Source: Bacteroidetes bacterium 43-16 (lineage in GTDB: Bacteria; Bacteroidota; Bacteroidia; Chitinophagales; Chitinophagaceae). Taken from it: a DNA stretch of 64,000 bases. Of this stretch, positions 18,471-39,388 are shown in pieces (positions within the stretch are counted from its first letter, which is position 1; each line of letters opens with the position of its first letter). The stretch covers positions 276,794-340,793 of the forward strand of contig MKTB01000010.1 of the NCBI GenBank assembly GCA_001897525.1, given 5' to 3'. The notes under the pieces are model-generated. The model saw nothing but the letters and a program-made list of their open reading frames with translations. It was not told where the DNA came from and searched no databases. A program made the position numbers and the translations under genes.

Positions 18471-18634
18471 TTACTTAAAATCCCTGGATGGGAATAATTC
18501 TCCCTGAATAGGTTTTGGGGTATCGGGATTCTTGGCTTCTTTCTTCGTTGGTTTGTCTACGGATCCGAAGTCCCGGACGCCGGAGTCTACGCATCAGGTG
18601 GTTCATGTTGTGCAGGGAATGTGAGATCACATGA
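18471..18634 (-). pseudogene. Decayed 3' end of a second dnaE2 gene
   Basis: This stretch is about 88% identical, by eye, to the last ~165 bases of the intact dnaE2 gene (25860-26025), in the same orientation. The match starts at the TAA stop and ends abruptly inside the gene. A two-base deletion relative to the intact copy, near 18585-18590, shifts the frame, so it is not functional. Sequence left of the stop shows no similarity between the two copies. Together with the alkB relic at 39260-39388, it appears to mark one end of an older SOS cassette. Confidence 0.88.
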
Positions 18635-18743
18635 AATGGTTACAAAGCCAGTTTCGCGGATACGGTCGGTTTGTTACTGCTAGCGGAAACGAGGGGCAAT
18701 ATGTCAAAAATGTATACCAAGGGGCTACAAAACCGCAGCGCCC

Positions 18744-18965
18744 ATGAGTCGTGAAGCGAGAGCCGGAATTGTTATCATGCTTCAAAATGCGGTTACCGAA
18801 ATTGAATTCAACAAAGGATACGTTGCCTACAAAACAAATAAATATACAGACGCTATGGAATGGCTTACCAGAGCAGTCAATAAAGGTCACGAGGAAGCCA
18901 AAACTGTAATGAGTATGGTTAAGGCAAAGCTGGCCACTGCAGCCTATAAAAACGGTCTAAAATAG
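18744..18965 (+). pseudogene. Sel1-repeat-like fragment
   Basis: The frame encodes 73 residues. The part from about residue 24 (GYVAYKTNKYTDAMEWL then RAVNKGHEEAKTVM) reads like one Sel1/TPR-type helical repeat. The first 20 residues do not fit. The DNA just upstream has other broken coding-like frames (for example GRFVTASGNEGQYVKN near 18665-18715). I read it as gene debris next to the recombination junction at 18634. A short real gene cannot be excluded. Confidence 0.35.
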
Positions 18966-19080
18966 AATGAGAAATGTGTGTGCGCAATACTTTAGAGCTC
19001 CCAAGTCATCTGGACGACGAAGGTTACCAAGCTTTAATTATGAGCCATGCTGAGATGCATATGTTTCACTAAAGCAGAGC

Positions 19081-19212
19081 ATGGATGAGCTAATCGGAGA
19101 TATCACATTTGTTTCTTTACGCGAAGACCATCCGCTTGCTATCATAGAAGCAATTGAACGCTTCGAAGAACTGCACCTAGCAGATGAAGAGGTTATAATC
19201 AGGCAGAATTAA
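19081..19212 (+). CDS. Short frame of unknown function (43 aa)
   Basis: ATG to TAA, encoding an acidic helical peptide (ITFVSLREDHPLAIIEAIER then an acidic tail). Composition is coding-like and it is followed 38 bases later by a good hairpin terminator at 19250-19269, which supports transcription from the left. It may be the remaining C-terminus of a larger, lost gene. Confidence 0.35.
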   Translation: MDELIGDITFVSLREDHPLAIIEAIERFEELHLADEEVIIRQN

Positions 19213-19249
19213 TGAATTCTTATCCCGAACACAAGATTTTAAAAACAAA

Positions 19250-19269
19250 AGCCATCCTCACGGATGGCT
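19250..19269 (+). terminator. Hairpin terminator
   Basis: AGCCATCC / GGATGGCT, an exact 8-bp stem with loop TCAC, followed by TTCTTATT. It could end transcription of the 43-codon frame. Confidence 0.6.
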
Positions 19270-19310
19270 TTCTTATTAGAAAGTATGTGCTTCCAAATAA
19301 TAAATTACCC

Positions 19311-19509
19311 GGTCGCTCCCTTAGTGTTAAAATCAGCAATACGCTTTTTCTAAACATCTATACGGACTTTCACCGATACGCCGGGAATGTCTGTAATAAA
19401 GGGATATACTCTTAATTAGATTGTTCATTTCTTTTTTTCTTTGAAGTAAAGATATATCAAGAAAAGCTAATAAAAATATAAATATATGCTTGGTCGCTCC
19501 CTTAGTGTT
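19311..19509. repeat. 18-bp direct repeat pair in a gene-free region
   Basis: GGTCGCTCCCTTAGTGTT occurs exactly at 19311-19328 and again at 19492-19509, 181 bases apart. Each copy is followed by unrelated AT-rich sequence, and no open frame of note lies between. It could be attachment-site remains, a small recombination footprint or a two-unit array. I saw no third copy in the window. Confidence 0.6.
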
Positions 19510-19993
19510 TATAACAGAAAACGTACTTGCAACGTCTCGCCAAGCACATATAAATAAATACGAGCATTTGGGATACATAGATTAAAAAGAACTGTTAAAT
19601 GCAAATAAGGCCCCAAACTTTTTAGACAATTCACACGAATTCCTATTTCGAGGCTACTATATGTTCAGCAATCAATAAGGAGGATTCACGTATATTTTAT
19701 CCATACTTTCTTATAGAAAGCGCGGACAAGGCAGAGTTCAACCATCGGATATTACATCTACAAGAAAACTGAATAGACCAAAATAGATCAAAAAGGACGA
19801 ATGATAGTCCATCACAAATTAGCTTAACTTTAAGCTGTAATAAAGAGCACAAATACATTTATGGGCATAACTTTATATACGTAAACTACCTGTTGCTAAC
19901 GGGCAATTCCGAACCAATCAGCAAGCGTTGGATTCTGAACCGTTGCAACTATTTCGGTGTATAAAATGTTCTTTATATGTAAACGAGAATACT
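19510..19993. other. Intergenic gap upstream of ligD
   Basis: AT-rich, without a convincing gene. A minus-strand frame at 19333-19578 covers part of it but has unnatural composition and spans one repeat copy. No clear promoter box with correct spacing was found before ligD. Confidence 0.4.
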
Positions 19994-22666
19994 ATGGCAC
20001 TTACTTTATACAAACAAAAGCGGTCGTTTAAAGACACTCCGGAACCCGTAGGTGGAAAACCTGAAACTGAGCAGCTTCGCTTTGTCGTTCAGAAGCACGA
20101 CGCTACGCGTCTACACTATGATTTCCGTCTTGAAATAAACGGTGTGCTGAAAAGCTGGGCTGTACCCAAAGGACCCTCACTCAATCCTGAAGATAAAAGG
20201 TTGGCGATGGAGGTCGAAGACCATCCGTACGACTATAAGGACTTTGAGGGTATTATACCTAAGGGGAATTATGGCGCTGGTACTGTGATTGTCTGGGACG
20301 AAGGTACATATGAGCCTCTTGGCGAATTTGCCAATAAAAAACTGGCGGAAAAGGATCTGTATAAGCAGTGGAAATCTGGCAGTATCAAAATTCTGCTTAA
20401 AGGCAAAAAGCTAAAAGGTGAGTTTGCTCTGGTTAAAATGAAAGGCCGTCAGGAAAACGCCTGGCTGTTGATCAAACATAAAGACCGGTACGCCTCCGAC
20501 AATGATATAACCACGAAGGACAAATCTGTAGTTTCAAAAAAGACGCTAGAGCAAATTGAAAAGGCTGGTGAAAAAAATGTGGCAAAAGAAGCTGTTGAGA
20601 AATCGGTAAAGAAGGCCGGTACTCCTAAAAAAGCTGTTGCCCCTAAAAAAACAGCATCTAAATCTGTCCGTAAGCCGGTTGCTAATAAGGCTGTGGATAA
20701 ACTCTTAGCTGATGCTCCAAAGGCAGCCTTTCCTAAATTTATCAAACCCATGTTGGCTACCTTAGTCGACGAACCGTTCGATGCTGATGATTGGGAATAT
20801 GAGGTAAAATGGGACGGTTACCGCGCACTAACCTTTAAGAACGAAAAGAAGACAATGCTATTATCGCGCAATGAAAAGTCCTTTTCTGATAAGTTCTTTC
20901 CCGTGATGGAAGCGCTGGAAGATTGGGATGACCAGATGGTCGTCGATGGTGAGGTGGTTGCTATGGATAAGGATGGTCTACCTAGTTTTAATATTCTCCA
21001 GAACTGGAAGAATGAGGAAGATGGGCAGCTGCAGTACTATGTTTTTGATATCCTATGGTATAAAGGTAAAAATCTGATGGGACTACCTTTGACAGAGCGC
21101 AAGACAATCCTTGAGGCAATAATCCCAAAAGATCACCCAACTATCAAGTTAAGCGATAGTCTGAACGTTGCCGGAACGACGCTATTTAAGCAGGTATCAA
21201 AGATGGGACTGGAAGGGATCATGGCCAAGCGATCAAATAGCACTTACGTTGCTGGCGACCGCTCGAAGGACTGGCTCAAGATTAAAGCACAAAAACGGCA
21301 GGAAGTCGTCATCGGTGGGTATACGCGAAACGAAGGCAGCTCTAAAGCATTCAGTTCTCTGCTGCTGGGTGTATTTGAAGGTAAGAAGTTTGTTTATGTA
21401 GGTAAGGCAGGAACAGGTTTTAAAGCTAAGGAGCAAAAGGAACTTCTCGAACTCTTCGAACCACTTATCCGCAAAACCAGTGCATTCAATGAGAAACCTA
21501 ACGTCGAAAAGCCATCCCGATTCCGTCCGAACCCTCCCAAAGCAGAGGTGGTCTGGTTAAAACCTGAGCTCGTTTGTGAAGTACACTATACCGAGATTAC
21601 ACCTGATGGTGTTTTCCGGCATCCTGCTTTTATCGCGATGAGGGATGATAAAGAGGCTTCTTCGGTTAAGGCAGAGCGCGAGGTTGAGACCGAGGAAATT
21701 GTTGAAGAAGAATCATCCAGTCCGCAAAAGAAAAGAAGTGCGCCGAAAAAAGTTGTTGTTCAGCATAAAAGTAAGCAGGCCGTTAAAGTTGGAGGAAAGG
21801 AGCTTGTGTTTTCCAATCAAGATAAGGTACTATGGCCTGATGACGGCTTTACGAAAGGCGAACTTATTGATTACTATTCCGAAATTTCTAAGTACATCCT
21901 ACCGCATTTAAAGGACCGCCCGATGTCTCTTCACCGTTTTCCTAACGGCATCGATAAGCAGAGCTTTTACCAGAAAGACATGACAGATAAGGTTCCGGAT
22001 TGGGTCGAATTGTTTCCTTATAAGTCAGAGGATGACGACGAGCAAAAGAATTACATGCTTTGCCAGAATAAGGCAGCACTTCTATATATGGCGAATCTGG
22101 GAGCGATTGACGTTAATCCCTGGAACAGCACTGTAGAACATCCCGATCATCCGACCTGGTGCGCATTGGATTTAGACCCTGATAAGAGTAATACATTCGA
22201 TCAGGTTATCGAAGTTGCACAGGCGATCCACGAGTTCCTGGAAGAAATAAAGGTGCGATCGTATCCTAAAACTTCCGGTTCGACCGGTATCCATATCTAT
22301 ATTCCACTTGGAAGCCAGTACACCTATGATCAGTCGCAGCTATTTGCGAAAGCTATCGCCAGTCAGATCAATCAGCAATTTGACTTCACGAGTATAGAGC
22401 GGATGACGAGCAAGCGGAAAGGAAAGATTTATATTGATTATCTCCAGAATCGACCGGGAGCCACACTGGCTGCTCCTTACAGCGTAAGGCCTAAGCCGGG
22501 AGCAACTGTATCCATGCCTCTACATTGGGATGAAGTAAGGAAGGGATTGAAGATGGATGACTTTACCATCGAGAATGCTCTGAAACGTGTCCAATCCGAA
22601 GGCGATATATTCAAGCCGGTTCTTGGCAGAGGAATTAATTTAAAAAGTATTTTAGCGAAGATGTAG
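19994..22666 (+). CDS. ligD: Multidomain ATP-dependent DNA ligase D
   Basis: About 890 residues from the ATG at 19994, chosen because MALTLYKQKRSF is the usual start (a longer in-frame start at 19928 adds 22 atypical residues). Domain order is phosphoesterase, ligase, polymerase. The first has VVQKHDATRLHYDFRLE and GIIPKGNYGAGTV. The ligase has EVKWDGYRA with the AMP-accepting Lys272. A Lys/Glu-rich linker follows, then a primase-like polymerase with ALDLDPDK and YPKTSGSTGIHIYIP. It repairs double-strand breaks by end joining, normally recruited by Ku. No ku gene is in this window. It ends against a convergent pyrophosphatase gene with a shared hairpin. Confidence 0.93.
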   Translation: MALTLYKQKRSFKDTPEPVGGKPETEQLRFVVQKHDATRLHYDFRLEINGVLKSWAVPKGPSLNPEDKRLAMEVEDHPYDYKDFEGIIPKGNYGAGTVIVWDEGTYEPLGEFANKKLAEKDLYKQWKSGSIKILLKGKKLKGEFALVKMKGRQENAWLLIKHKDRYASDNDITTKDKSVVSKKTLEQIEKAGEKNVAKEAVEKSVKKAGTPKKAVAPKKTASKSVRKPVANKAVDKLLADAPKAAFPKFIKPMLATLVDEPFDADDWEYEVKWDGYRALTFKNEKKTMLLSRNEKSFSDKFFPVMEALEDWDDQMVVDGEVVAMDKDGLPSFNILQNWKNEEDGQLQYYVFDILWYKGKNLMGLPLTERKTILEAIIPKDHPTIKLSDSLNVAGTTLFKQVSKMGLEGIMAKRSNSTYVAGDRSKDWLKIKAQKRQEVVIGGYTRNEGSSKAFSSLLLGVFEGKKFVYVGKAGTGFKAKEQKELLELFEPLIRKTSAFNEKPNVEKPSRFRPNPPKAEVVWLKPELVCEVHYTEITPDGVFRHPAFIAMRDDKEASSVKAEREVETEEIVEEESSSPQKKRSAPKKVVVQHKSKQAVKVGGKELVFSNQDKVLWPDDGFTKGELIDYYSEISKYILPHLKDRPMSLHRFPNGIDKQSFYQKDMTDKVPDWVELFPYKSEDDDEQKNYMLCQNKAALLYMANLGAIDVNPWNSTVEHPDHPTWCALDLDPDKSNTFDQVIEVAQAIHEFLEEIKVRSYPKTSGSTGIHIYIPLGSQYTYDQSQLFAKAIASQINQQFDFTSIERMTSKRKGKIYIDYLQNRPGATLAAPYSVRPKPGATVSMPLHWDEVRKGLKMDDFTIENALKRVQSEGDIFKPVLGRGINLKSILAKM

Positions 22667-22668
22667 CG

Positions 22669-22692
22669 TGGTATAACAAAAAAATTATACCA
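22669..22692. terminator. Bidirectional hairpin between ligD and the pyrophosphatase gene
   Basis: TGGTATAA / TTATACCA, an exact 8-bp stem with an A-rich loop. It starts right after the ligD stop and overlaps the last codons of the convergent gene. It could stop transcripts from both sides. Confidence 0.5.
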
Positions 22693-23491
22693 TGCTTATT
22701 CGTGATACCCGTATCAGGATTTCATCTTGTTGAAATCGCTTCTCAAGGTCAGATTTTAAGGTATTCCAAAACTCCTTTTCAGCAGTAACTGTCATCACCT
22801 CGAATATAATCAGTTTGTCCTCCTCAGCACTATCGTTATGGCCATGCCAAATACCCTTTACAGGTGATCTGTGATAAACCGTTACGCCTCCAAATTTATC
22901 CAGTAATAAGTCGCGTAACTTATCGAAATGGCTGTCGGGAAAACTTTTTCCATCTTGATTATGCAATGGTACAAAGATTTCAAAAAGAAGTTTCTTGGTA
23001 CCGATGTCTTTACACTTTTGGATTAGCTTAGTTGACTGGCTAGCGGATATGCGTCTTTCTACTGTAATACGTTTCCCTTCCAGCTGCATATAGTTAATAA
23101 AGAAAGCCTCCAATTCGGTAACAATTTGCTTAGGAAGATCTTTTATGGTATCCACTTTACTATAAATCTCAGATTCAACGGGAATCGCAATAAATCGGTC
23201 ATTGCGTATTGATTTACTGCTTTGGGCAGATTCTGTTTGACTGATAACAAAAGCTCCAATGATCCGGCACTCTACCGAGCAGCCAGGGAAAGTTGGAAAT
23301 TCAGAAATCACGATGACGTCCAACGGATCACCGTCTTCGCCTTTTGTACCCGGCAAGAAACCAAAGTCGTATGGGAATGCCATTCCCGCTGGTAACAGCT
23401 TCTTCAACATCATCTGTCCATTTAGTGGATCATAGGTGAATTTCTGCCTGCTGCCTGCAGGCGTTTCTATTGTTATCGAAAATGTATCCAT
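22685..23491 (-). CDS. Inorganic pyrophosphatase with an extra C-terminal domain
   Basis: 268 residues against ~175 for a normal class I pyrophosphatase. The N-terminal part has YDFGFLPGTKGEDGDPLDV, with the signature D-x-D-P-x-D at residues 53-58 that binds the catalytic metal ions. From about residue 167 a second unit begins (LFEIFVPLHN, then LLLDKFGGVTVYHRSP and KLIIFEVMTV). It resembles a free-standing family of small uncharacterised proteins. The enzyme should split pyrophosphate to phosphate. A link with the convergent ligD, whose ligase and polymerase reactions release pyrophosphate, is attractive but only inferred. It is transcribed singly, with a terminator just upstream ending the SDR gene. 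Confidence 0.78.
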   Translation of the reverse strand: MDTFSITIETPAGSRQKFTYDPLNGQMMLKKLLPAGMAFPYDFGFLPGTKGEDGDPLDVIVISEFPTFPGCSVECRIIGAFVISQTESAQSSKSIRNDRFIAIPVESEIYSKVDTIKDLPKQIVTELEAFFINYMQLEGKRITVERRISASQSTKLIQKCKDIGTKKLLFEIFVPLHNQDGKSFPDSHFDKLRDLLLDKFGGVTVYHRSPVKGIWHGHNDSAEEDKLIIFEVMTVTAEKEFWNTLKSDLEKRFQQDEILIRVSRISMV

Positions 23492-23548
23492 GTTAATTTA
23501 AAAAAAGTTACGCTCTCTACGTTCCGGATAATACAGCTGCTATTGAAA

Positions 23549-23579: not shown

Positions 23580-23586
23580 ATATTCT

Positions 23587-24291
23587 TTATTTTGTTTTAG
23601 TCGGACGAACTTCAATTTTGCTCGGTAAGACGTTGGGATTCATTTTTAATAAGTCAACGATAAGCTGCCCAATATCGGCCGGCTGAATTTTCCAACCATC
23701 TTCTTCATTCGGTACATGATCATTGAAGTGTGATGTCACCGACCCCGGCATAATGGTGGTGCATTTTATATCGTAGTTACGCAGGTCAAGCATAGCAGCC
23801 TGTGTAAATCCTACCAACCCAAATTTAGACGCATTGTAACCCGCTCCATTCGCAAAAAAGTTTGTTCCGGCCAAGGATGCGATTGAAATGTAGTATCCCT
23901 TGTTTTGTTTCAATTGTTCTACAGTGGCTTTCAGTGTATGAAATGCACCAGTCAGGTTGGTGTCAATCATCGCATTCCAATCTTCAAGAGTCAATTCATC
24001 TACGGGTGCAAATTTCCCTAAACCTGCATTGGCAACGACTATATCCAGCTTTCCGAATTTTTGCAATATCTGATCAACGGCTTGCACCTCGTTTTCGAAG
24101 TTCTTTACATCAGCCTGAATGGCTAACACATTTTGGTTGCCCAGCTCTTGCGTAGCCTTTTCCACATCCTGTATGTTTCTTCCTGATATGGCCACCTTGA
24201 CACCTGCTTCGATTAGGGCTTTTGCTATTCCAAAACCTATACCTTTTGTTCCTCCGGTTATGTAAGCTACCTTATCCTGTATGTTCTGCAT
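23587..24291 (-). CDS. Short-chain dehydrogenase/reductase
   Basis: A 234-residue classical SDR: TGGTKGIGFGIA (NADP-binding glycine motif, residues ~14-25), NAGLG, a Ser in ISIASLAG and YNASKFG with the catalytic Tyr and Lys. It probably reduces or oxidises a carbonyl substrate with NAD(P)H in the cytoplasm. 3-oxoacyl-ACP-reductase-like annotation is common for such sequences, but the substrate cannot be read from sequence. It has its own terminator and no clear operon partner, so its presence among DNA repair genes may be incidental. Confidence 0.88.
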   Translation of the reverse strand: MQNIQDKVAYITGGTKGIGFGIAKALIEAGVKVAISGRNIQDVEKATQELGNQNVLAIQADVKNFENEVQAVDQILQKFGKLDIVVANAGLGKFAPVDELTLEDWNAMIDTNLTGAFHTLKATVEQLKQNKGYYISIASLAGTNFFANGAGYNASKFGLVGFTQAAMLDLRNYDIKCTTIMPGSVTSHFNDHVPNEEDGWKIQPADIGQLIVDLLKMNPNVLPSKIEVRPTKTK

Positions 24292-24428
24292 ATAAATTGT
24301 TGTGAAAGATTTTTTGATTATGCTTTATATCTAAAATGATACCGAATATATAAAGTTAACCAATAAAATTCGAGATAGTTCAATTGATTTTACGCCTATT
24401 TCTTGACCTAGGCATTTAAAAATAGGGC

Positions 24429-25796
24429 TTACAGACTATTTAAATGTACCTTGTTTGGATATTTTTGTGCATAGTTCAAAATTAATTGGTTCATATAGTA
24501 ATTTCCGGTGTATCGGTCCAAGCCTACTTTAATATCCGATATATCCTGGATCTGGCTATCCTGTTCGATGTAGCCCATTCCATAAAAGTTACCTTTTTCC
24601 ATCCATATGCAGCTCTTTTCTTCTCTTTCACGCCCTTTATCCATAATTGCGAATGTTGGTAGGCTGCTATCCAGCGCATATAGTGCTTCGTCCACTAAAT
24701 CATTGTGCTGATTAAGGGGTGGCAGTTGAGTTGTATCTATCGTTTGCAACATTTCCTGACGTGACTGTTTCGCTGTTGTGAATCTGCAAAGTCTGCGGTC
24801 GATACCGTACTTCTCCACAATACCATTGAGCATCTTTACAGCTTCATACTCCCGGTTTACCACGGTAAAGCAAGTTACATATTTAGAAACTTTACCTACT
24901 GCAATCCGCTTATATCCTGCCAGGTCTTCATACACAAACAGCCCAAACTTTGGCTCGAACTTTTTAAGTGCTCTGTTGTGTGCAGGCCAGTGCTGCTTTA
25001 TTTCGGCACATTCCAAAAGTAGTGCCATCAGCTCTGTTGCGCATATTACTGACGAGATGGAATGTATTTCCCGAAGAAAGTTCTGACGCTGGGGATTGAT
25101 ATTGTGACCGGAAAAGTGCTGGCCTACCCTTTTCTTAATATTCAATGCTTTGCCGATGTAAATAATCTTTCCTTTGGCATTGTGAAAATAATACACACCG
25201 GGCCGTTCCGGCAGTACTTCAAATTGCTCTTCAGGTAAATTGGGTGGCAGACGCTGATCTTTGGATGTAACTTTGATCATCTGCTTTATAATACCTTCAT
25301 CATCCCATTCCAAGAGTTTGGAAAAAAGTATAGTAGTTGCATCACAATCGCCTCCGGCACGGTGCCTGTTGGCAATCGGAATATCCAGATCATCACAAAG
25401 CCGACCTAAACTATAAGATTTGAAACCAGGTTTGATTTTCTTAGCGGTACGTACCGTACATAATTTTTTTGCTGTCCATTTATAGCCGCACTCGCTCAGC
25501 TGGTGTCGAATAAAGGAATAGTCAAAGTTTACGTTATGTGCAACAAAGATACGCCCCTCAAGTAATGTATATACCTGCTGTGCGATATCGCCAAATATTG
25601 GTGCGTCGCGCACCATGTTGTTGTCAATTCCGGTCAGTCCAAAAATGGCAAGTGGGATATCCTTCTCTGGATTGATCAGTGTATCAAATCTGTCAATAAC
25701 CTCCGTGCCATTGTGTATACGGATTGCTATTTCTGTCATGCGGCTTCCACGCGCATTCCCACCTGTAGTTTCAATATCAACGATAGCGTATTCCAT
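24429..25796 (-). CDS. DnaQ-type exonuclease fused to a GIY-YIG (UvrC-like) nuclease domain
   Basis: 455 residues. Residues 1-~165 form a 3'-5' exonuclease of the DEDDh type: AIVDIETTGG (Asp7, Glu9), FVAHNVNFDY and HRAGGDCDAT with the His/Asp. At ~195-280 is a GIY-YIG domain with RPGVYYFHNAKGKIIYIGKA and VGQHF. The remaining ~170 residues are unassigned. Such fusions resemble E. coli Cho plus DnaQ and are taken to act in repair or proofreading. It follows dnaE2 by 63 bases on the same strand, so it is probably the fourth gene of the SOS mutasome operon and could supply proofreading or incision. Confidence 0.87.
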   Translation of the reverse strand: MEYAIVDIETTGGNARGSRMTEIAIRIHNGTEVIDRFDTLINPEKDIPLAIFGLTGIDNNMVRDAPIFGDIAQQVYTLLEGRIFVAHNVNFDYSFIRHQLSECGYKWTAKKLCTVRTAKKIKPGFKSYSLGRLCDDLDIPIANRHRAGGDCDATTILFSKLLEWDDEGIIKQMIKVTSKDQRLPPNLPEEQFEVLPERPGVYYFHNAKGKIIYIGKALNIKKRVGQHFSGHNINPQRQNFLREIHSISSVICATELMALLLECAEIKQHWPAHNRALKKFEPKFGLFVYEDLAGYKRIAVGKVSKYVTCFTVVNREYEAVKMLNGIVEKYGIDRRLCRFTTAKQSRQEMLQTIDTTQLPPLNQHNDLVDEALYALDSSLPTFAIMDKGREREEKSCIWMEKGNFYGMGYIEQDSQIQDISDIKVGLDRYTGNYYMNQLILNYAQKYPNKVHLNSL

Positions 25797-29066: not shown

Positions 29067-29080
29067 TATTCATTTTATTG

Positions 29081-30574: not shown

Positions 30575-31316
30575 AACGCTCGATTTTAGGTACTTTAATT
30601 ACTGTTGCATCCTGAGGTTTGATGGAAATAAAAGCTCCATCCTTCCAACCAAAATACCAGGTACCCGGCTTACCGTTCCTGATCTTCTCCAAACGGACCT
30701 CCCATACCGGTATACCCACACCCGGCATATTGCCGGCGGTATGGCTTGCTATCGGTCTGATCTTCCAGCGGGATACACAAGCCAGCGTATTTTCTCTTCT
30801 CGGTCTTTTTCTATGCAGAAAACCGGTAACCTTACTATCTTCTACAGCCAATTGCAGGCGCTGGGACTGTGCAAAGGATAGTTCGCCCAGTTCAGCTACT
30901 ACCGCAACCAGCGCATTGCACTTCAATGCCTGTTCCATCACCCATAGGGCTTCTCTATCAGTTCTGACATCTATAAAAACTATTCTATGCGGCTGGATAC
31001 CGAAATAAGTTAAACCTGCAGGAAACAGACTCCGCTTCGTGCTCACCCAGAGACAGGACATATCATTTGTCATCAATGTAGATAGCAAGCCGGCCACAAA
31101 TCCATTTGCTGCGGTTGCACATGCCGACGTCGGACTAATGAACTCATGCACCGCTCCCAGCGGCAATACTCCAAAGGGAAATGCCGGTGCCATAGCATTC
31201 AATCCAAAATCCGGTACATCCTGACCTATGACGCTGCGTTTGAATCCCTGTATCGCCAGAAGCTGCTCCCGTAGCTCCCTGACAATATCTTTTTTATCTA
31301 ACCCCAGCATAATCAA
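30567..31316 (-). CDS. imuA: ImuA-like RecA-related mutasome protein
   Basis: A 249-residue protein with a degenerate RecA-like core: FPFGVLPLGAVHEFISP near the start, LWVSTKRSLFPAGL in the middle and LLLAVEDSKVTGFLHRKRP-type segments later. A proper Walker A is missing, as usual for ImuA/SulA-like proteins. It is thought to tune mutasome assembly with RecA and ImuB. It is the first gene of the operon and diverges from the S24 repressor gene. The 65 bases between them contain the inverted repeat that probably controls both. Starts at 31316 and 31310 are both possible. Confidence 0.87.
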   Translation of the reverse strand: MIMLGLDKKDIVRELREQLLAIQGFKRSVIGQDVPDFGLNAMAPAFPFGVLPLGAVHEFISPTSACATAANGFVAGLLSTLMTNDMSCLWVSTKRSLFPAGLTYFGIQPHRIVFIDVRTDREALWVMEQALKCNALVAVVAELGELSFAQSQRLQLAVEDSKVTGFLHRKRPRRENTLACVSRWKIRPIASHTAGNMPGVGIPVWEVRLEKIRNGKPGTWYFGWKDGAFISIKPQDATVIKVPKIERYA

Positions 31317-31332
31317 AACATTTTATGTACTT

Positions 31333-31374
31333 TTGATACAATTTGTATCAATTACTTGTTTATTAAAGTATCAA
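31333..31374. promoter_or_regulatory. Operator between imuA and the S24 repressor gene
   Basis: TTGATAC-AATTT-GTATCAA at 31333-31351 is a perfect 7-bp inverted repeat with a 5-base spacer. A further GTATCAA half-site lies at 31368-31374. The site sits midway between the divergent starts (31316 and 31381), where a LexA-like repressor would shut both promoters. Binding by the adjacent S24 protein is inferred from position and symmetry. Confidence 0.75.
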
Positions 31375-31380
31375 TATAAA

Positions 31381-32184
31381 ATGAAGGAGCAAAATATTTT
31401 TTTCGCTGCAAACCTTAAATTCCTTCGGGAACGCAATAAAATGAGCCAGGAAGAGCTTTCAAAAAAAATAAATTTATCAAGGCCAAAAGTAGCTGCACTG
31501 GAATCGGGTCACACCAAATCGCCGCAGCCGGAGGATTATATTAATCTCTCCAATTACTTTAAGATCAGCATTGATAGTTTACTGAAAGTAGACCTGAGTA
31601 AATTAGGTGAGCTTAAATTGCGGGAACTGCAATCGGGCAATGATGTTTATCTGAAAGGAGGCAATCTTCGTGTGTTGGCCATAAGTGTAGATGCAACGAA
31701 TACGGAGCAAACGCAGTATGTACCGGTCAAAGCAAAGGCCGGCTATTCTGATGGTGGTTACTCCGATCCCGAATATATTGCCGAGCTGCCTAAATACAGG
31801 CTACCCCATATTCCCAAACAGGGTACCTTCCGGATTTTTCCGATCAGCGGGGAATCTATGCTCCCTATTCCGGATGGATCGGATATTACAGGTCAATTCG
31901 TAGAAGACTGGACCAGTCTCAAAGCAGGCACACCGGCTATTGTTATATTGAAAGGTCAGGATTTCGTATTTAAGCTGATGACATTTCAGGATGATGGCAA
32001 CGTACTGCTGGAATCTCTGAATACAGACTATGCAGCCTATACTGTCGAAGCTGCCGATGTGATAGAGGTCTGGAAATTCTATGCTTATACCAGTAAAGAA
32101 ATGCCGGAAGCGGTAACCGATCTTTCTGTAATCCTCCGGGAGATCAGGGGATTAAAAGGAAGTTCTGCAGGGTTTAAAAGTTAA
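31381..32184 (+). CDS. LexA/CI-type repressor: HTH plus S24 self-cleaving domain
   Basis: 267 residues from the ATG at 31381. The open frame extends upstream, but that part would cross the operator and read antisense to imuA. It has an N-terminal XRE helix-turn-helix (FLRERNKMSQEELSKKI, NLSRPKVAALESG) and a C-terminal S24 domain with the nucleophile Ser159 in ISGESMLP and general base Lys198 in FVFKLM. The likely self-cleavage site is Ala120-Gly121 in VKAKAGYS. After DNA damage, RecA filaments should trigger cleavage and release imuA-imuB-dnaE2 and this gene with alkB (nine-base gap). It is thus the local SOS switch of the cassette. Confidence 0.88.
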   Translation: MKEQNIFFAANLKFLRERNKMSQEELSKKINLSRPKVAALESGHTKSPQPEDYINLSNYFKISIDSLLKVDLSKLGELKLRELQSGNDVYLKGGNLRVLAISVDATNTEQTQYVPVKAKAGYSDGGYSDPEYIAELPKYRLPHIPKQGTFRIFPISGESMLPIPDGSDITGQFVEDWTSLKAGTPAIVILKGQDFVFKLMTFQDDGNVLLESLNTDYAAYTVEAADVIEVWKFYAYTSKEMPEAVTDLSVILREIRGLKGSSAGFKS

Positions 32185-32193
32185 TTGTGAGCT

Positions 32194-32784
32194 ATGGAGC
32201 AAATGAAGCTGTTTGAGGATGCGGAATTATATAAACTGCCTGTTGAGCTAATGGATTATCACCCGTACTTTTTCAGCAGGGCAGAAAGTGATGCTTACTA
32301 TCAGATTCTGATGAATACAGTACCCTGGGAACAGCGGGAAATGAAGATGTATGATAAGATGGTGATCCGCCCACGGCTATCGGCGTGGTATGGTAAAGGG
32401 AAGGAAGAGTCTGAAAGCGTTGCACTGGAGTGGACACCTGAACTTCTGGCCATCAAATCTTGTGTGGAGGCGAAAACGGGTGTGCAATTCAGCAGTGTAC
32501 TGCTAAACTACTACCGTGATGGGAATGACTCTGTAGCCTGGCATAGTGATAAGGATACGGTACCGGGACTGAAAACAGAGATTGCTTCAGTCAGTTTCGG
32601 CCAGGTCCGTGCTTTTGATTTTCGCCATAAAAACAATCATCAGATCAAGCACAGTCTGGAGCTGGGGCATGGTTCGCTGCTCCTTATGAAAGGTGATCTT
32701 CAGCGATACTGGGAGCATCGGATAGCTAAGTCGGCAATGCCTATGACAGGTCGTATTAATCTGACGTTTAGGATTGTTGTATAA
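32194..32784 (+). CDS. alkB: AlkB-like DNA repair dioxygenase
   Basis: A 196-residue Fe(II)/2-oxoglutarate dioxygenase. The iron ligands are His117 and Asp119 in AWHSDKD and His175 in YWEHRIAK. The 2-oxoglutarate-binding arginines lie in RINLTFR (187-193), and PRLSAWYG is the nucleotide-lid motif typical of AlkB/ALKBH2-like enzymes. It removes alkyl lesions from DNA bases oxidatively. It follows the repressor gene by nine bases and should be co-induced. Its last 129 bases, to just past the stop, recur in decayed form at 39260-39388. Confidence 0.92.
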   Translation: MEQMKLFEDAELYKLPVELMDYHPYFFSRAESDAYYQILMNTVPWEQREMKMYDKMVIRPRLSAWYGKGKEESESVALEWTPELLAIKSCVEAKTGVQFSSVLLNYYRDGNDSVAWHSDKDTVPGLKTEIASVSFGQVRAFDFRHKNNHQIKHSLELGHGSLLLMKGDLQRYWEHRIAKSAMPMTGRINLTFRIVV

Positions 32785-32856
32785 TACGCCCGTATAATAC
32801 TGATGATCAATGCCTAATAAATATATTCCCACAAATAAATAACTCATTAAATCGTC

Positions 32857-32864: not shown

Positions 32865-32879
32865 TAGAAAACCAAATAT

Positions 32880-34814
32880 ATGAATGAGAATATTACAGGC
32901 CGGATTATTCAATATCTACAAGTCAAATCCAACTATGCAATTATACTTAGTGGCGAGTATGGCATAGGAAAAACACATTTTCTAAAAACAGTAGTTTTTC
33001 CTAAAATAGAGGAAATTCCTATCCAAGGATCTGACAAAGAGGAAAATAAAAGTGACACAAAACCCAAAAACTATAAAACCATACACGTCTCCCTATTTGG
33101 CGTTAAAAGTATTGAAGACATCCAGAGAGCGCTCTTTCTTGAGATTTACCCATGGTTTAAAAGTAAGACTGCAAAGGTCTCCAAAGGAATTTTAAAAAGT
33201 GTTGGGCAATTCTTTAGTGTAAATATTGAGGACTTTATTGATACACTAGAAGTAGATTCAAAAAAAAGTGGGTTTGAAAATCTTCTAATCTGTATAGATG
33301 ATATTGACCGAAAAAACAAGTCGCTAGACCTTAGCGAGGTTTACGGCTACATTAACAACCTGGTTGAAAATCTTGGAGCCAAAATTATCATGATAGCAAA
33401 TGAAGATTTATTAAGGAAAGAAGTTAATGAAAAAGGTGAAGATTTGTATTCGACATTAAGGGAAAAAGTTATTGGAATAACAATTCCTTTTTTGCCAGAC
33501 ACTAACCGAGCCTTCGATCAAATCGTGGATACGAACTACAAATTAGTAGAACCTGCGTATTCTGAATTTCTAAAAGCTCATCAGCAGGAAATAGTAAATG
33601 CCATTGATTATGCTGACTATAATTTGAGGAATCTACTATTTTTTCTTGAGCATTTTAAAGTCGTCTTCAAGACAGCTTCTGAATACTTTGAGGAAAATCC
33701 AGAAGTCAGTTCCTATGTCGACAAATTAAAAAAGCAGCTACTAAGCTTTACGCTACCTATATCAATTGAATATAAATTGGGAAATCTTACTGAACATAAC
33801 ATTGCCGAAATACAAGAGTTGTACACAAATGATTTTGGATCCAATCTCAATTCTATGATTTTTGATGACGAGGAAACGAAAGACAAATCATACGGAGAGG
33901 TGTTTAGTAATAAGTATTTTAAGAATGTCCAGATAGAAAAAAATTTCATCTTTTCCGTACTAGTCTATATCCTTGGTAAAGATGAATTTACAAAGGAAAA
34001 TTATGCATATGATATAGAAGGTTACTTGAGAATAACAAATAATCAAGTTCCCGCATCTCAACAATTAATAATGGACCTTAGTTACTGGAGCTGTGTTAAC
34101 TACAGCGAAGTCGAATATAGAGAAAAGACTGAAAATTTGATAGAATATATTAAAAATGGTGATGTTCAATTGGATCAGTACATAACAGCTTTTCATTATG
34201 CCACAAGATTTGAAAATCTACTCGAATTTGACCTTGAAACTTTGAAAGAGGATTTCATTAATAGTATACATGCTAACATTGACAAATTTGTAGAATATCC
34301 AAATGCTGAATTAAGATTGGGAATACCTTATGATACTGAATTTAAAAATTTTCTCATTGATATTAAAAATGAGATTCTTTCAGTCAATGATAAGTTGCAC
34401 GAAAAAAACATTATGAAGCACTGGCAGGATGAATTTTTAGATTTTAAGGAGCATTATGATCGCTTTTTAGAGGAAAGCAAGGTTATGAATAGTAGTACGA
34501 GCTTTATACCATATCTATCTTATTTCCCAGAAGAAGAAACTGCTGATTTCATTTTGAAATTACCGAATTCACAGATTGTCTCATTTTCTTATTATATAAG
34601 GCATCGTTATAAACCACACAGTGCTGAATCTCTATTTCAAGATAGTTCCTTTTTATCGTTGTTAAAATCAAAAGTAAATCTGGAACTGGAAAATTCGCAA
34701 AAGGATAAGATTGACAAGAAAGTATTAAATATGATTAATCAAGAAATTGATAATGCCCTAATTATTTTAGCGAAATATCAAAATGAAGATAATAATCTGC
34801 AGGATGACGAATAG
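32880..34814 (+). CDS. KAP-family P-loop NTPase, putative defence protein
   Basis: A 644-residue protein. Walker A is GEYGIGKT (25-32), and Walker B is LLICIDDIDR (about 135-144) followed by ANEDLL, the KAP NTPase arrangement. There are no clear transmembrane helices of the classic KAP insert. The C-terminal 400 residues are helical and charged, likely sensing or oligomerisation surfaces. KAP ATPases recur in antiphage systems, often beside a nuclease, and here an HNH gene follows after 347 bases on the same strand. The gene starts 95 bases after alkB with its own possible promoter. The role is inferred from family and setting. Confidence 0.78.
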   Translation: MNENITGRIIQYLQVKSNYAIILSGEYGIGKTHFLKTVVFPKIEEIPIQGSDKEENKSDTKPKNYKTIHVSLFGVKSIEDIQRALFLEIYPWFKSKTAKVSKGILKSVGQFFSVNIEDFIDTLEVDSKKSGFENLLICIDDIDRKNKSLDLSEVYGYINNLVENLGAKIIMIANEDLLRKEVNEKGEDLYSTLREKVIGITIPFLPDTNRAFDQIVDTNYKLVEPAYSEFLKAHQQEIVNAIDYADYNLRNLLFFLEHFKVVFKTASEYFEENPEVSSYVDKLKKQLLSFTLPISIEYKLGNLTEHNIAEIQELYTNDFGSNLNSMIFDDEETKDKSYGEVFSNKYFKNVQIEKNFIFSVLVYILGKDEFTKENYAYDIEGYLRITNNQVPASQQLIMDLSYWSCVNYSEVEYREKTENLIEYIKNGDVQLDQYITAFHYATRFENLLEFDLETLKEDFINSIHANIDKFVEYPNAELRLGIPYDTEFKNFLIDIKNEILSVNDKLHEKNIMKHWQDEFLDFKEHYDRFLEESKVMNSSTSFIPYLSYFPEEETADFILKLPNSQIVSFSYYIRHRYKPHSAESLFQDSSFLSLLKSKVNLELENSQKDKIDKKVLNMINQEIDNALIILAKYQNEDNNLQDDE

Positions 34815-35161
34815 ATAAATTTTTACAATACAAGGTACCGAAACATTTCTCAAATTTGCGTAATAGTTTGATAATATTGATTTAGCTCCAATCTGAAAAT
34901 TGTCACTTTATTGTTTGTTACAAAATACTATTAAACCAACTCTAAGTCATATTTATATAACCAACATATGAAACTCACAATGATATAAAAATCAACACTA
35001 TACACATACGTTTATTATAACACACAAAACAATCACATTATCTTTTTCAACAATACAAATAGAAAAATTAGCAATAATAATCGTGAAAAAAATATGTTAA
35101 AATTTTCACAATGAATCAACTTTTAACTCATCAATTTATATAATCATAAAAACATAAATAA
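34815..35161. other. Gap between KAP and HNH genes
   Basis: Very AT-rich, with no gene and no strong hairpin. Such a long gap suggests that the HNH gene has its own promoter, although no well-spaced box was identified. Confidence 0.4.
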
Positions 35162-36619
35162 ATGAGAAACGAATTAGAAAATGTGTGCTTACTGTGCGGC
35201 AAACAAATGATTGACAGAACTGGAAGCCTGAACATGTCCAATAATGGAGGAAATGACTTCAAAATCAGACATAAGGAGCACATTATACAAAATGCTATAG
35301 GTGGAAGACTGAAAAGTGACACAATTCTCTGTGAATCATGTGGCAGCGATCTAAATGTGGCTATCGATGTGGATTTCCTAAATATCTTGTCTTCGTTTAC
35401 TGAAAAAATGAAGCCAGTAATTAATAAGGAAAGAAACGGTAAATCAAAAAATCGTATTAATGGTTTACACATTCCTTCAAATCAAAAAATTCTATATACC
35501 CATAATAAAGTTATACCCAAAAAGCCAGACCACAAGATTTGTGATCGGCTAAAAACTATTACTTTGTATGCCAGAGTCGAAGCAATGAAAGGATTTCGAA
35601 AGGCTAAAATTAAGGAATTAATAACTAAAAATTCAGACTACGAAAATTATAAAATACAAGAGGTGACGGAATTTGATTACGACGATTTAGTATCACTAAA
35701 TTTTAGTGAGGGCGTTTCAGATTTCAATCAGAAATGGTCACTTGGCTTTATTAAAATTGCAACAGAATTTGCATATCTAAATGGGGTTTCTCGAGTAGAT
35801 CTCGTAAGAACGCTCGACCTACAGAATAACAAGCTAATTGATACTGGCAATGTATTCCCATATTTTCCAATTGGGGTATTTGATCTTGCATATGAAAATA
35901 GTAGACATCTTATAGAAGATACTTTTCCATCCCATACCTTAATCCTATTTACCTCAGCTAATGAAACTGGAACTTTCTCATTATTCTGTTATGTAGAACT
36001 ATTTAGCACGTTTCAATTTTATGTTTTGCTTAATGATAATTACGGAAGCGAAATTCATGAAATATATTCTCAGAAGGCGACAAAAAATGAGAAGACTGAA
36101 TTAAACATTGAAACATACGATTATAAAGAGTTGATAAGCCTTGCGTCAGACTTAGAAATTAATCCTAGTGAATTCACAATAGATCAAATTGATGAATTCC
36201 GTCATCAATTAATTTTAGCTTTCGAAAATAAACAGTCCAACTATAAGGTCGACAAGGGAGCTACTCTCGAAAAATATATTTCTATTTTATCAAAGAACAT
36301 TGCCATGCGCGATTGTAATAAAATAGACAGTACAAATACTTTTTCAGAATTACTCCCTGCAAAGTATATTTTGGAATTTGATGAAGAAACAACTATATGT
36401 CTGTTACTTGAGAGTAAGGAATATCTAAACGATGAGGGATCAATAAACATAAAACGCTATCGCACAAAATTTGTAGAATCGGATGGTGGACATGGGTATA
36501 AAACCATGTCGACACCAATAGAGATAATGAAATGCTTAAAACGCTACGATGCTCATATTAGGCAATACTGTCATTATAAGTTCGATATTTTCGCGAAGTA
36601 TACAAATGAGCTATTATAA
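35162..36619 (+). CDS. HNH endonuclease-domain protein
   Basis: 485 residues. The N-terminal ~70 form an HNH-type zinc-bound nuclease domain: Cys9 and Cys12 in CLLCGK, RHKEHIIQNAIGGR (His37, His40 and Asn44) and ILCESCGSDLN (Cys57, Cys60, Asn65). This is the layout of the HNH_5-like group, where His40 would activate water. The remaining 400 residues are unrecognised and could hold recognition or sensing functions. It follows the KAP NTPase gene and precedes a broken membrane gene, within the block bounded by the alkB repeat. Its target, DNA or RNA, cannot be read. Confidence 0.75.
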   Translation: MRNELENVCLLCGKQMIDRTGSLNMSNNGGNDFKIRHKEHIIQNAIGGRLKSDTILCESCGSDLNVAIDVDFLNILSSFTEKMKPVINKERNGKSKNRINGLHIPSNQKILYTHNKVIPKKPDHKICDRLKTITLYARVEAMKGFRKAKIKELITKNSDYENYKIQEVTEFDYDDLVSLNFSEGVSDFNQKWSLGFIKIATEFAYLNGVSRVDLVRTLDLQNNKLIDTGNVFPYFPIGVFDLAYENSRHLIEDTFPSHTLILFTSANETGTFSLFCYVELFSTFQFYVLLNDNYGSEIHEIYSQKATKNEKTELNIETYDYKELISLASDLEINPSEFTIDQIDEFRHQLILAFENKQSNYKVDKGATLEKYISILSKNIAMRDCNKIDSTNTFSELLPAKYILEFDEETTICLLLESKEYLNDEGSINIKRYRTKFVESDGGHGYKTMSTPIEIMKCLKRYDAHIRQYCHYKFDIFAKYTNELL

Positions 36620-36696
36620 ATTCTTAGTCGGGTGTGAGGTAAAAAATGCCTCTTTATCGACTAATAAATTTTATCTTTTGCCTAATAGAATAACCC

Positions 36697-37138
36697 ATGA
36701 AAAAGAAAGCACTTACTCAATTTGGGATATTGATTTTACTACTGGTGAATGGGCTATCTTCAATTGTTTCAGGTTTGCTTTTCATTAAAAATCCGATAGG
36801 CCTGTCCATGGGACTACATACATCAATCCTGAAGCAGAGGCCATTTGACACCTTTCTGGTACCTGGTATTATCTTGGTACTATTTAATGGTATCTCTAGC
36901 TTGTTTGTGCTGTGGAAGGTTGCAAGAACTAGCCGAGATGCCGGGTACTGGCTCATTCTGCAAGGCATGTTCCAGTGGATGGATTATTGTTCAGTTGATT
37001 ATGTTGAGATCATTTAACCTGCTTCATTTTATTTTCGGTATGATCGGTATGTTATTCCTATTCGTGGGTTTCCAATATTTTAAAAAAAACACCCATAAGC
37101 TAATAAGCGAGATTTGCAGAGGTATATCTGCAACATGA
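36697..37138 (+). pseudogene. Frameshifted small membrane protein gene
   Basis: Two frames together make one hydrophobic protein of ~147 residues with four likely membrane helices. The first runs from ATG 36697 (LTQFGILILLLVNGLSSIV) to about YWLILQGMF. The second continues SGWIIVQLIMLRSFNLLHFI to the TGA at 37136-37138. The switch lies near 36969-36975 and needs a one-base deletion or two-base insertion. It is either an inactivated gene or a sequence error. No function is assigned, though the composite resembles small four-helix membrane proteins of Bacteroidota. Confidence 0.65.
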
Positions 37139-39066
37139 ATTTCAATAAAATAGATTACATGGCGAAAAGAATAAGAAACCATATGCTAGAAGACGAATCA
37201 AGATTGTTTTTCAAAAAGTCTCTACCTGAATTTTGGGTATGTCGAGATAAAACAGATGATTACGGAATCGATTGTGAAGTTGAAATCTTTAATGATAATG
37301 GAACTACTACAGGTTTAGTATTCTGGGTGCAACTAAAAGGTACCGATGAGACCGACGAAGAATTAATTAAAAAAATCAATTTCAAAAAGGATAAAATCCG
37401 TCAGTTTATAGATTATGATATTCCTGTCTTAATTGTCAGATATTCATCTTTGAGGCAGGCTCAATTTGTAAAATGGGCAAAAAGCATCCGAATTAATGGA
37501 AAGTCTACAAAAAGTTTGGGCGTACAATTCCATGAGAGTGAATTATGGAATGAAGATACAAATCTGATTATAAGATCTTATTTAGAAAGCCAGAATTTCA
37601 TCAAAAGAGGGATGGTGAAATTTCCAATACGAACGTCAATACTTCGACTAGAATATGACAACATTGAAGAAATCCCTTATTCTAATGTTTCCATAGTAAA
37701 GCAATGCCTAAGTTCCCAATCAAAATATTTCATTCTAAAATCGGATCCTAAGGAGTCATCGTTACACATAAAAGTTGGTGATAATTTTGTGCTAACAAGT
37801 TTTGTGGATTTAGCATTAGCATCAATGTCTTTAACATTTGATGATATTGAAGCAGAACACATTGAAAAACTTACAAAATATATTCTAATTACCGTCTGTC
37901 ATACACTGTATGATATTGGGAAAAACAATATGGGAGAGCAGATCATTTTTGAGAATGGTCTTCTTTCTATTATTATGTGTTACAAAGAATTTTTAATTGG
38001 CCTTTTACCACATCTCCTTGCTGGCGACAGATCGTCAGAAGTCCTGGAAATATTAAATGAATACTCTAGAAAAAACACAGATGACAATATCATAGAAATT
38101 ACTACACAAATATTGTTATTGGTAAATAAAAGGACAAATCAACATGCTGATGCAATTGAAGAATTTTTAAAAATTCAACTGGACATCGCACGAGGGAGAA
38201 AATATAACATTTGGATTGCTACAGGACTCTACAATCTGGGTAATTTTTATCGCAATGAAAATAGAATGGAGCAAGCCTTAGAAAATTATCTTGAAGCACG
38301 GAAATACAACAGTAATTACAAAAACAAAGCTTATTATTATTACGAATTAGCTGGCGTTTTATTCTTGCTTCAGAAATATTACTTCGCCAGCAAATTTTAT
38401 GAAAAGGCTATTCAATTGAATACCGACTATCCTTATGCTAAAGCACTATGGGCGCACTCTCTTTTGTATTTAGGGAAGTATGATACTTCATTAAATTTGA
38501 TCGACACTTTCTTAAAAGAACAAGTTAATAATGATGATGTTGATATAGAAGAGTGGCAGCTTTGGCATTCTTGCCTACAATCATTATTTGACGCTGGATA
38601 TCCGCAAAATCAAGTACGAGATACGTGTGCCTCTAATCAATGCGTGCAAGAAAAAAACTTTAGTGAGGCTATAGAGCTTGATTTATTGAACGATTTAGCA
38701 TGGTACAATTTAGGAGTTCAACAAGCTGACAATAAAGATAATCATTCTGCATTTTTAGCATTTACATTTGCAGCTCTCCTATCTAATGATGATATACAAG
38801 CTTGGGTAAATGCAACACTCTTAGGACTGAGTTTGATAAGTAAAGAAGTATATGCAGCTCTACTGATTTCCATAGTTAGAACTGCTTATCATTATGATGG
38901 TTTCGACTATGTGAATCTTTTACAGGAGAACATTAGGAGACAATCTCCAAGAGATGCATCTGTGGTAATGGAACTAATCGATAGTACAATTATAGAAAGA
39001 AAAAGGGAGCCAACAATCATAAGAATTTTCAATGATAACGACGATTTTGAACAAATTGTAATTTAG
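37135..39066 (+). CDS. DUF4365 nuclease-like domain plus TPR repeats
   Basis: About 643 residues from the ATG at 37135, overlapping the end of the broken membrane gene by four bases (an upstream start at 37114 is also open). The N-terminal ~150 residues match DUF4365, a PD-(D/E)xK-like domain: RLFFKKSLPEFWVC, DYGIDCEVEIF and FWVQLKGTD, where Asp, Glu and the Q-x-K pair are the core residues. From ~320 a series of TPR-like helices follows (ATGLYNLGNFYRNENRMEQAL, KAYYYYELAGVLFLLQKYY). DUF4365-repeat proteins occur in defence islands as putative sensor-effectors. It is the last gene of the right-hand cargo. Confidence 0.75.
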   Translation: MNFNKIDYMAKRIRNHMLEDESRLFFKKSLPEFWVCRDKTDDYGIDCEVEIFNDNGTTTGLVFWVQLKGTDETDEELIKKINFKKDKIRQFIDYDIPVLIVRYSSLRQAQFVKWAKSIRINGKSTKSLGVQFHESELWNEDTNLIIRSYLESQNFIKRGMVKFPIRTSILRLEYDNIEEIPYSNVSIVKQCLSSQSKYFILKSDPKESSLHIKVGDNFVLTSFVDLALASMSLTFDDIEAEHIEKLTKYILITVCHTLYDIGKNNMGEQIIFENGLLSIIMCYKEFLIGLLPHLLAGDRSSEVLEILNEYSRKNTDDNIIEITTQILLLVNKRTNQHADAIEEFLKIQLDIARGRKYNIWIATGLYNLGNFYRNENRMEQALENYLEARKYNSNYKNKAYYYYELAGVLFLLQKYYFASKFYEKAIQLNTDYPYAKALWAHSLLYLGKYDTSLNLIDTFLKEQVNNDDVDIEEWQLWHSCLQSLFDAGYPQNQVRDTCASNQCVQEKNFSEAIELDLLNDLAWYNLGVQQADNKDNHSAFLAFTFAALLSNDDIQAWVNATLLGLSLISKEVYAALLISIVRTAYHYDGFDYVNLLQENIRRQSPRDASVVMELIDSTIIERKREPTIIRIFNDNDDFEQIVI

Positions 39067-39259
39067 GCTTTATTGGAGAGAAAAGACGCAAATTTTTTTG
39101 CCCAACTGATCTTAAATACTAAATATAGATGGATACTTTTGTCAAAGTAATTCATTTTTTAGCGAGCCATTTTTGGTAATCCATATTACTTGTAATGGCG
39201 CTGTTTATATTACAGATCTTTATTTCGGAATAAAGAGGATCATAAGCTAAAGCGCGCCC
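39067..39259. other. Junction region between cargo and the alkB relic
   Basis: No gene. A perfect 7-bp hairpin with a TCGG loop (CTTTATT/AATAAAG, 39218-39235) lacks a T run. The bases at 39259/39260 mark where alkB-like sequence begins. No terminal inverted repeat matches the left junction at 18634/18635. Confidence 0.45.
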
Positions 39260-39388
39260 GGAACTGGGTCATGGTTCGCTACTCCTTATGAAGGGTGATC
39301 TTCAGCTATACTGGGAGTATCGGATGGCATAGTCAGTGTTGCATATGAAAGGCAGGAATAATCTAACGTTTAGGATTATTGTACAATA
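39260..39388 (+). pseudogene. Decayed 3' end of a second alkB gene
   Basis: 129 bases align without gaps to 32658-32786, the end of the intact alkB, at roughly 83% identity by eye. The match ends at the stop codon of alkB. The relic reads GHGSLLLMKGDLQ then WEYRMA and an early stop, so even the iron ligand His is Tyr. It cannot work. A GC-rich hairpin terminator follows at 39445, absent after the intact alkB copy. This fits the relic being the original end of the older cassette. Confidence 0.88.

Follow-up and report, generated by a model that had tools for sequence, protein, structure and literature searches.

How do the two ends of a gene cassette come to lie outside another, complete copy of it? 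The question is raised by a 64,000-nucleotide stretch of the genome of Bacteroidetes bacterium 43-16 (Chitinophagaceae; contig MKTB01000010.1, positions 276,794 to 340,793), here called the window and numbered from its first nucleotide. It contains a complete SOS mutagenesis cassette and, beyond the cargo genes on either side, a short decayed copy of the 3′ end of the cassette's own terminal gene, dnaE2 on the left and alkB on the right. To judge from their substitutions, these relics derive from the outer ends of a diverged older, related cassette and are not simple decayed duplicates. Our reading of the locus, to which we assign a probability of about 0.48, is that this older cassette was displaced at the same place by the newer one, likely via homology-facilitated illegitimate recombination (HFIR), in two one-sided events.

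The intact cassette has the layout expected of a divergent SOS unit, with dnaE2-imuB-imuA in one direction and a LexA-like repressor and alkB in the other. On the minus strand, dnaE2 (25860 to 29066), imuB (29081 to 30574), and the imuA-like gene (30567 to 31316) are adjacent and codirectional over positions 25860 to 31316, in the same order as in most of the loci fetched for comparison. The 1,068-amino-acid (aa) product of dnaE2, an error-prone polymerase, shares at most 76% identity with the DnaE2 proteins of named genomes; imuB adjoins dnaE2 in almost every fetched locus that extends far enough, and the imuA-like gene, which has no Pfam match, lies upstream of imuB in most of them (the names imuB and imuA-like are those we presume to apply). 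On the plus strand are the repressor gene (31228 to 32184; Pfam HTH_3 above and Peptidase_S24 just below the cutoff) and alkB (32194 to 32784), whose product shares 42 to 63% identity with 10 AlkB proteins of the fetched loci. Between the divergent units, imuA and the repressor, a pattern search identified the perfect palindrome TTGATAC-N5-GTATCAA (31333 to 31351), probably the SOS operator of the LexA-like repressor. It is the sole perfect match in the window, and the exact pattern recurred in only one of the 223 fetched loci, from Dyadobacter (L061). The dyad-N5-dyad form is that described for Bacteroidetes LexA-like repressors in passages of PMC8565304. Three further operator-like sites, each with 3 mismatches, occur in the window (one, at 24336 to 24354, upstream of a dehydrogenase-like gene). 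Chance alone would produce about 5, and we therefore rejected SOS operator control of the cargo genes.

The left relic (18471 to 18633, minus strand) corresponds to the last 55 codons of dnaE2. It is 89% identical to positions 25860 to 26024, the 3′ end of the intact gene, with a single 2-nucleotide (nt) deletion, and like the intact gene it extends to the stop codon, which is retained (self-BLAST E value, 1.5e-55). Twelve of its 16 substitutions fall at third codon positions (binomial P = 0.0008), and among 53 comparable codons the changes are synonymous in 10 and residue changing in 4. Because of this third-position bias and the nearly unchanged protein sequence, the relic is best traced to a diverged older gene, one that evidently diverged while still working and died late. 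Its nearest relative among 130 loci compared is, by far, the window's own dnaE2.

The right relic, from alkB (plus strand), is more worn. The initial annotation gave it as 129 bp at about 83% identity, which stands for its core (39260 to 39388 against 32658 to 32786, 83%); with a gap allowed, the match grows to 39223 to 39388 against 32620 to 32786, at 79.6% identity (E value, 6.2e-35). It has lost 1 nt, gained an in-frame stop (TAG for AAG), and no longer ends in a stop codon, the original one now reading CAA. Of 55 codons, 10 carry synonymous and 18 residue-changing differences, and the relic lacks a histidine present in 10 of 10 AlkB homologues, which we take to be an iron ligand of the enzyme. 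At two sites, however, the relic has the residue found in 6 of the 10 homologues while the residue of the intact alkB is found in only 1, and on this ground we derive the relic from a distinct older allele.

Both relics lie where they had been reported, with alignments far above chance, and the diverged resident allele proposed as their source is supported by the codon-position test on one side and the homologue comparison on the other. Each is oriented like its intact gene, so that the tails face outward on both sides, each is about 165 bp long, and each runs to the position of the gene's stop codon. Their divergence from the intact genes, 11% and 20%, excludes assembly duplicates. They have worn unequally, with changes at 4 versus 18 of about 110 first and second codon positions for dnaE2 and alkB, respectively (P = 0.003); third-position divergence is similar (12/55 versus 15/55, P = 0.66), and plainly degenerative changes, by our own count, number 1 versus 6 (P = 0.06, not significant). 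The left and right cargo blocks differ in G+C content, 42% versus 32%. No tRNA gene or Rfam family was found within the window. The absence of a visible integrase was likewise borne out by a Pfam scan of 18 window proteins, which included 7 of the 8 cargo open reading frames (ORFs) (23587 to 24291 and small ORFs fell outside the scan).

A second, one-sided case came to light when 74 dnaE2 loci of at least 12 kb were each compared with themselves. Only one of them, from Sphingobacterium arenae (L101), showed a further dnaE2 tail, the remaining rows being scattered weak matches. The order there is intact dnaE2, 9.4 kb of cargo, and a 196-bp dnaE2 tail (89% identity over 188 bp), with 15 of 25 differences at third positions (P = 0.006); this arrangement reads as the left half of the anatomy seen in the window. 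From its ORFs, we take the cargo to be a sigma factor-FecR-SusC-SusD-protease cluster. Beyond the tail lie a candidate PDC-M62 gene pair, which also has weaker Septu-like matches, and a gene for an endonuclease-like protein. A wider self-repeat survey covered 1,304 ORFs of 84 loci, including the window and two overlapping views of the relative G003. Once four 3′-end rows in a repeat array (L084) were set aside, it yielded three ORF-less 3′-end copies, namely the dnaE2 relic, the alkB relic, and the S. arenae tail, and two ORF-less 5′-end copies (81 and 96 bp, in L100 and L099), both at noncassette genes. As two of the three 3′ copies are the original finding, the survey is a weak test.

Profiles of the C-terminal and N-terminal 125 residues of DnaE2 were run on 294 genomes of the window's own family and 301 of the S. 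arenae family, at an E value of 1e-3 for the C-terminal profile and, for the N-terminal one, 1e-10 in the S. arenae family and matches stronger than 1e-10, judged by eye, in the own family; weaker matches were listed for 37 chosen genomes. C-terminal matches outnumbered N-terminal ones in 16 genomes (G031, G036, G065, G155, G180, and G244 in a first group; G294, G387, G456, G486, G489, G494, G530, G556, G572, and G594 in a second) and the reverse held in 2 (G131 and G430), for a sign test P value of 0.0013 across the two families. A single-threshold count gave 14 versus 2 (P = 0.004) and the own family alone 6 versus 1 (P = 0.125). These tests assume independent genomes, and the searches score the best 14 or so candidates per genome. 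Matches in G036, G387, and G131 are at contig ends, those in G456, G489, G556, G594, and G430 are profile matches only, their DNA not having been viewed, and those in G387 and G530 are weak and lost at 1e-10; N-terminal matches in overlapping pieces (G123 and G222) were each taken as a single gene. The relic in the window is too weak for the profiles and stands outside the 16-versus-2 count. Detection runs against the bias because the N-terminal profile is the more conserved (mean column identity, 78% versus 50%). By tblastn, nine 3′ leftovers were found inside contigs (G031 contig 3, G155, G244, G180, G065, G294, G486, G494, and G572); a second G031 match was not recovered at 1e-4. Their breakpoints range from about residue 581 to 988, that of the window being at about 1015. 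In G494, whose genome gave no match to an intact dnaE2, a decayed dnaE2 tail neighbors a Ku gene (L169, 9484 to 11858).

The locus in relatives tells what else has occupied the site. The outer flanks of the window's block are marked by an nSTAND3 gene (from 14452) on the left and glyoxalase/radC (39561 to 40918) on the right. In a genus sample of five genomes, including the window's own, an SOS cassette is present at this place in three, two relatives carrying a different, dinB-dnaE type. In these two (G004 and G001), genes of the window's right flank lie beside a Y-family polymerase gene and a DnaE-like gene, forming a cassette of a dinB-like gene and a gene for a 987-aa DnaE-like protein in the syntenic place (L156, 2611 to 6727, and L160, 7818 to 11910, respectively). 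Between the two, the Y-family polymerase genes are 80% and the DnaE-like genes 73% identical, and the cassette is accompanied in G004 by an SRAP gene and in G001 by the gene of a LexA-like repressor. The notion of an SOS cassette site thus holds for the right flank in two of four relatives; the left side rests on a single G004 homologue (45%) of the window gene at 12282 to 14123, beside that genome's cassette, the left-flank DNA search having met mainly a multicopy gene. Together these data indicate that the site has hosted at least two kinds of SOS cassette. The imuA-imuB-dnaE2/alkB type occurs, among the genus relatives, only in G003, where the 34 kb fetched around it contained none of the window's flank genes bar one weak 28% match; the window flanks were not located in G002 or G003. 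Accordingly, the single resident imuA-imuB-dnaE2/alkB cassette between these outer flanks that the initial annotation had looked to was found in none of the five genomes. Nor did the window contain relics of the dinB-dnaE cassette at an E value of 0.1, the only match being that of its DnaE to the intact dnaE2. Related dinB-like/DnaE-like pairs occur elsewhere in G000 and G001, and also in G002, and contig 6 of G004 starts with a DnaE-like gene and a repressor gene. Of 72,556 plasmid records, 785 carried a dnaE2 relative at an E value of 1e-100; only one exceeded 60% identity (Dyadobacter, 65%), and recent plasmid transfer of the cassette is therefore not shown.

How, then, would the nested anatomy have arisen? 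By HFIR, incoming DNA comprising a cassette and neighboring cargo would pair by homology with the resident cassette and cross over there, while the end of the cargo would join illegitimately inside the resident terminal gene. The 5′ part of that gene would be lost and its last 160 to 200 bp pushed outward, and one such step per side would give the nested arrangement. What can be observed is the insertion together with the loss: cargo is present and the older dnaE2 and alkB lack their 5′ parts, from which we infer that the two came about in a single step on each side. We likewise infer that a homologous crossover took place within the cassette, in which order the events came, and that there were two of them. 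HFIR is favored because it explains at once the intact gene on the inside, the diverged tail on the outside, the lost 5′ parts, the lack of an integrase, and the one-sided case. Tails may be short simply because recombination between longer repeats would have eliminated the cargo.

Several observations weigh against this account. Neither a donor nor the preinsertion resident of the locus was found in the five genus genomes, and the crossover within the cassette is unseen. There is no clear microhomology at the junctions: none is obvious on the left, and on the right the boundary is blurred by decay. HFIR junctions mostly show 3 to 10 bp of microhomology and laboratory insertions average about 1 kb, as given in parts of PMC3240628, a size far exceeded by inserts of 6 to 9 kb. 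The third-position bias of the alkB relic is not significant (15/33, P = 0.10), so that codon positions alone are no proof of its diverged ancestry. Pairs of a relic and an intact gene are rare, occurring in 2 of the 84 surveyed loci, the window included. Finally, the majority of 3′ leftovers occur in loci where no intact cassette is close by. Tails of this kind thus also result from plain loss, and the bias could stem from selection against truncated genes that are expressed.

That last point lends weight to a history in which former tandem cassettes, with cargo between them, lost their outer members by deletion from the promoter side, leaving the tails, and it takes some weight from displacement. 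Many genomes do have two intact dnaE2 copies. The scheme would, however, require three cassettes at this locus, and no second intact dnaE2 appeared in the fetched flanks (up to 10 kb) in the self-scan of 74 loci; we regard it as improbable. Displacement in one event, as first proposed, would have a 20.6-kb segment, bringing a cassette of its own flanked on each side by cargo, replace the middle of the resident, whose alkB was perhaps already dead. It accommodates the symmetry of the nested anatomy, the tails of about 165 bp, and the like third-position divergence of the two relics, but it requires two illegitimate junctions, leaves the unequal first- and second-position wear and the disparate G+C content of the cargo to be accounted for, and has in S. 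arenae a one-sided case to contend with. We hold it possible though on balance unlikely. Two one-sided events are somewhat likelier, being mechanically simpler and consistent with the unequal wear and G+C content, yet the evidence does not decide; the similar third-position divergence, the insignificant degenerative difference, and the small numbers keep the single event in play. Of the initial proposal, displacement of an older cassette by a newer one is hence upheld, and replacement of the whole middle at a stroke is not established.

Other routes to displaced tails fare worse. Integrase-type elements that insert at gene 3′ ends leave tails ending at the stop codon at their far side, which is what the relics look like. 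Against such elements, a very unlikely source here, are the lack of an integrase in the 7 of 8 cargo ORFs scanned, the differing tails (165 bp in the window, 196 bp in S. arenae), and the scatter of breakpoints (about residue 581 to 1015), which betrays no fixed crossover site; we rejected them on the first and last of these grounds. Had the gene tails been duplicated locally and then decayed, this would explain why the dnaE2 relic is nearest to the window's own dnaE2, and the alkB relic alone is near a neutral pattern. Such a history is contradicted by the third-position bias and nearly unchanged protein of the dnaE2 relic, the codon-position test leading us to reject it for that gene, and by the homologue residues that the alkB relic shares where the intact gene is derived; the chance of its being right seems very small. 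Integration of a circle by a single crossover in the resident cassette was rejected on topology, as the cargo would then sit between two cassettes.

The cargo of the window is mixed. From the left relic to ligD (18634 to 19927), there is no long ORF. This interval includes a short ORF at 18744 to 18965 with a weak tetratricopeptide repeat (TPR) match below the cutoff and, at about 19239 to 19599, one copy of an approximately 360-bp interspersed repeat; this copy has two GGTCGCTCCCTTAGTGTT blocks spaced 181 bp apart and a terminator-like hairpin at its start, and 76% copies occur on two other contigs (G000:C7:59651-59982 and G000:C9:134498-134803). The left block then comprises, on the plus strand, ligD (19928 to 22666), for a multidomain ATP-dependent nonhomologous end-joining ligase with Pfam LigD_N, ligase, and Prim-Pol domains, and, on the minus strand, genes for an inorganic pyrophosphatase-like protein (22685 to 23491; Pfam), a protein that we presume from its sequence to be short-chain dehydrogenase-like (23587 to 24291; tblastn matches of 27 to 33% in other loci), and an exonuclease with RNase_T and GIY-YIG domains (24429 to 25796; Pfam), directly downstream of dnaE2. 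The last also adjoins dnaE2 in L092 (61% identity), and a ligD gene (54%) lies near the SOS cassette of Pedobacter sp. MC2016-24 (L075, 2828 to 5539), as in the window. The right block, all on the plus strand, encodes a KAP P-loop NTPase of the candidate defense family PDC-S49 (32880 to 34814; Pfam; PADLOC E value, 1.9e-53), an HNH_5 protein (35162 to 36619) and a DUF4365-TPR protein (37114 to 39066), both identified by Pfam and without a PADLOC match, and between these two a 106-aa hypothetical protein (36697 to 37017; ORF only, no Pfam match). Adjoining the left relic on the outside is a 1,282-aa nSTAND3 protein (14452 to 18300; Pfam, weak PADLOC match), probably a defense STAND NTPase.

The KAP NTPase inside the block and the nSTAND3 protein outside it are the window's defense candidates, and it had been suggested that SOS cassettes gather defense genes generally. 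For intact cassettes, this was not supported in the sample scanned. At 1e-15, PADLOC returned 31 families (25 shown) for the 141 ORFs around 12 intact cassettes from the window's own family and 23 families for the 117 ORFs of 12 control stretches 100 kb away, no clear excess in what is a coarse test, since the tallies are of families, not distinct proteins, and one protein may match many models. The loci were the first 12 of 20 fetched on each side (141 of 233 flank ORFs, 117 of 189 control ORFs). Around relics, where selected neighbors were scanned (leaving out L171, L173, and L177), three neighborhoods had clear defense genes: a PDC-M62 pair and an endonuclease in G294; an IetS-like subtilase/AAA ATPase pair on one side of the dnaE2 tail and type I restriction and GmrSD genes on the other in G065 (L183, 4468 to 16190); and PD-Lambda-4 in G572. 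A weaker endonuclease match was present in G486.

How nonmobile genes form islands without integrases is an open question to which the locus may speak. Related cassettes are widespread and bring their own repressor and operator, and for this reason they might act as portable homology anchors. SOS mutagenesis cassettes would then be integrase-free growth points that capture DNA on either side, with outward tails recording the displacements, a generalization we offer as doubtful. Were it true, cassette after cassette would add neighboring DNA and the gene tails would form a readable record of displacement; a cassette that leaves scars and has its own homology anchor would make it possible to count past acquisitions and place them in order with nothing but the sequence. 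Leftovers of dnaE2 show a 3′ bias that is simple to count and can be tested in any large genome set; it may stem from the recombination mechanism or from selection against expressed truncated polymerase, two causes that can be told apart.

Parts of this picture have counterparts in known systems. With the imuA-imuB-dnaE2 cassettes under Bacteroidetes LexA-like repressors in PMC8565304, the window shares gene content, an HTH/S24 repressor, and a dyad-N5-dyad palindrome, although its TTGATAC-N5-GTATCAA is a variant of the motifs given there and the relevant passages of that paper treat regulation, not displacement. With HFIR as portrayed for transformable bacteria in sections of PMC3240628, it shares an insertion coupled to a deletion and would share one homologous and one illegitimate end; the differences are those of scale and junction already noted, about 1 kb and 3 to 10 bp of microhomology there versus 6 to 9 kb and no microhomology seen here. 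Our comparison draws on open-access papers, and we make no claim that the nested anatomy is unpublished. A further likeness is to the type VI secretion system (T6SS) effector modules of Vibrio cholerae, for which parts of Kirchberger et al. (2017, PMC5361080) describe sequential displacement, suggest HFIR, and cite Rhs loci as a like case. There, as proposed here, one side is anchored by homology, the other is joined illegitimately, and older gene ends are pushed outward, but in the portions concerned it is immunity genes and the effector 3′ end that are shifted, on one side only. Unlike those loci, the window has a divergent DNA repair cassette, displaced tails on both sides, and cargo with repair and possibly defense functions. 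The process would be of a known kind and its setting new: both sides of a repair cassette.

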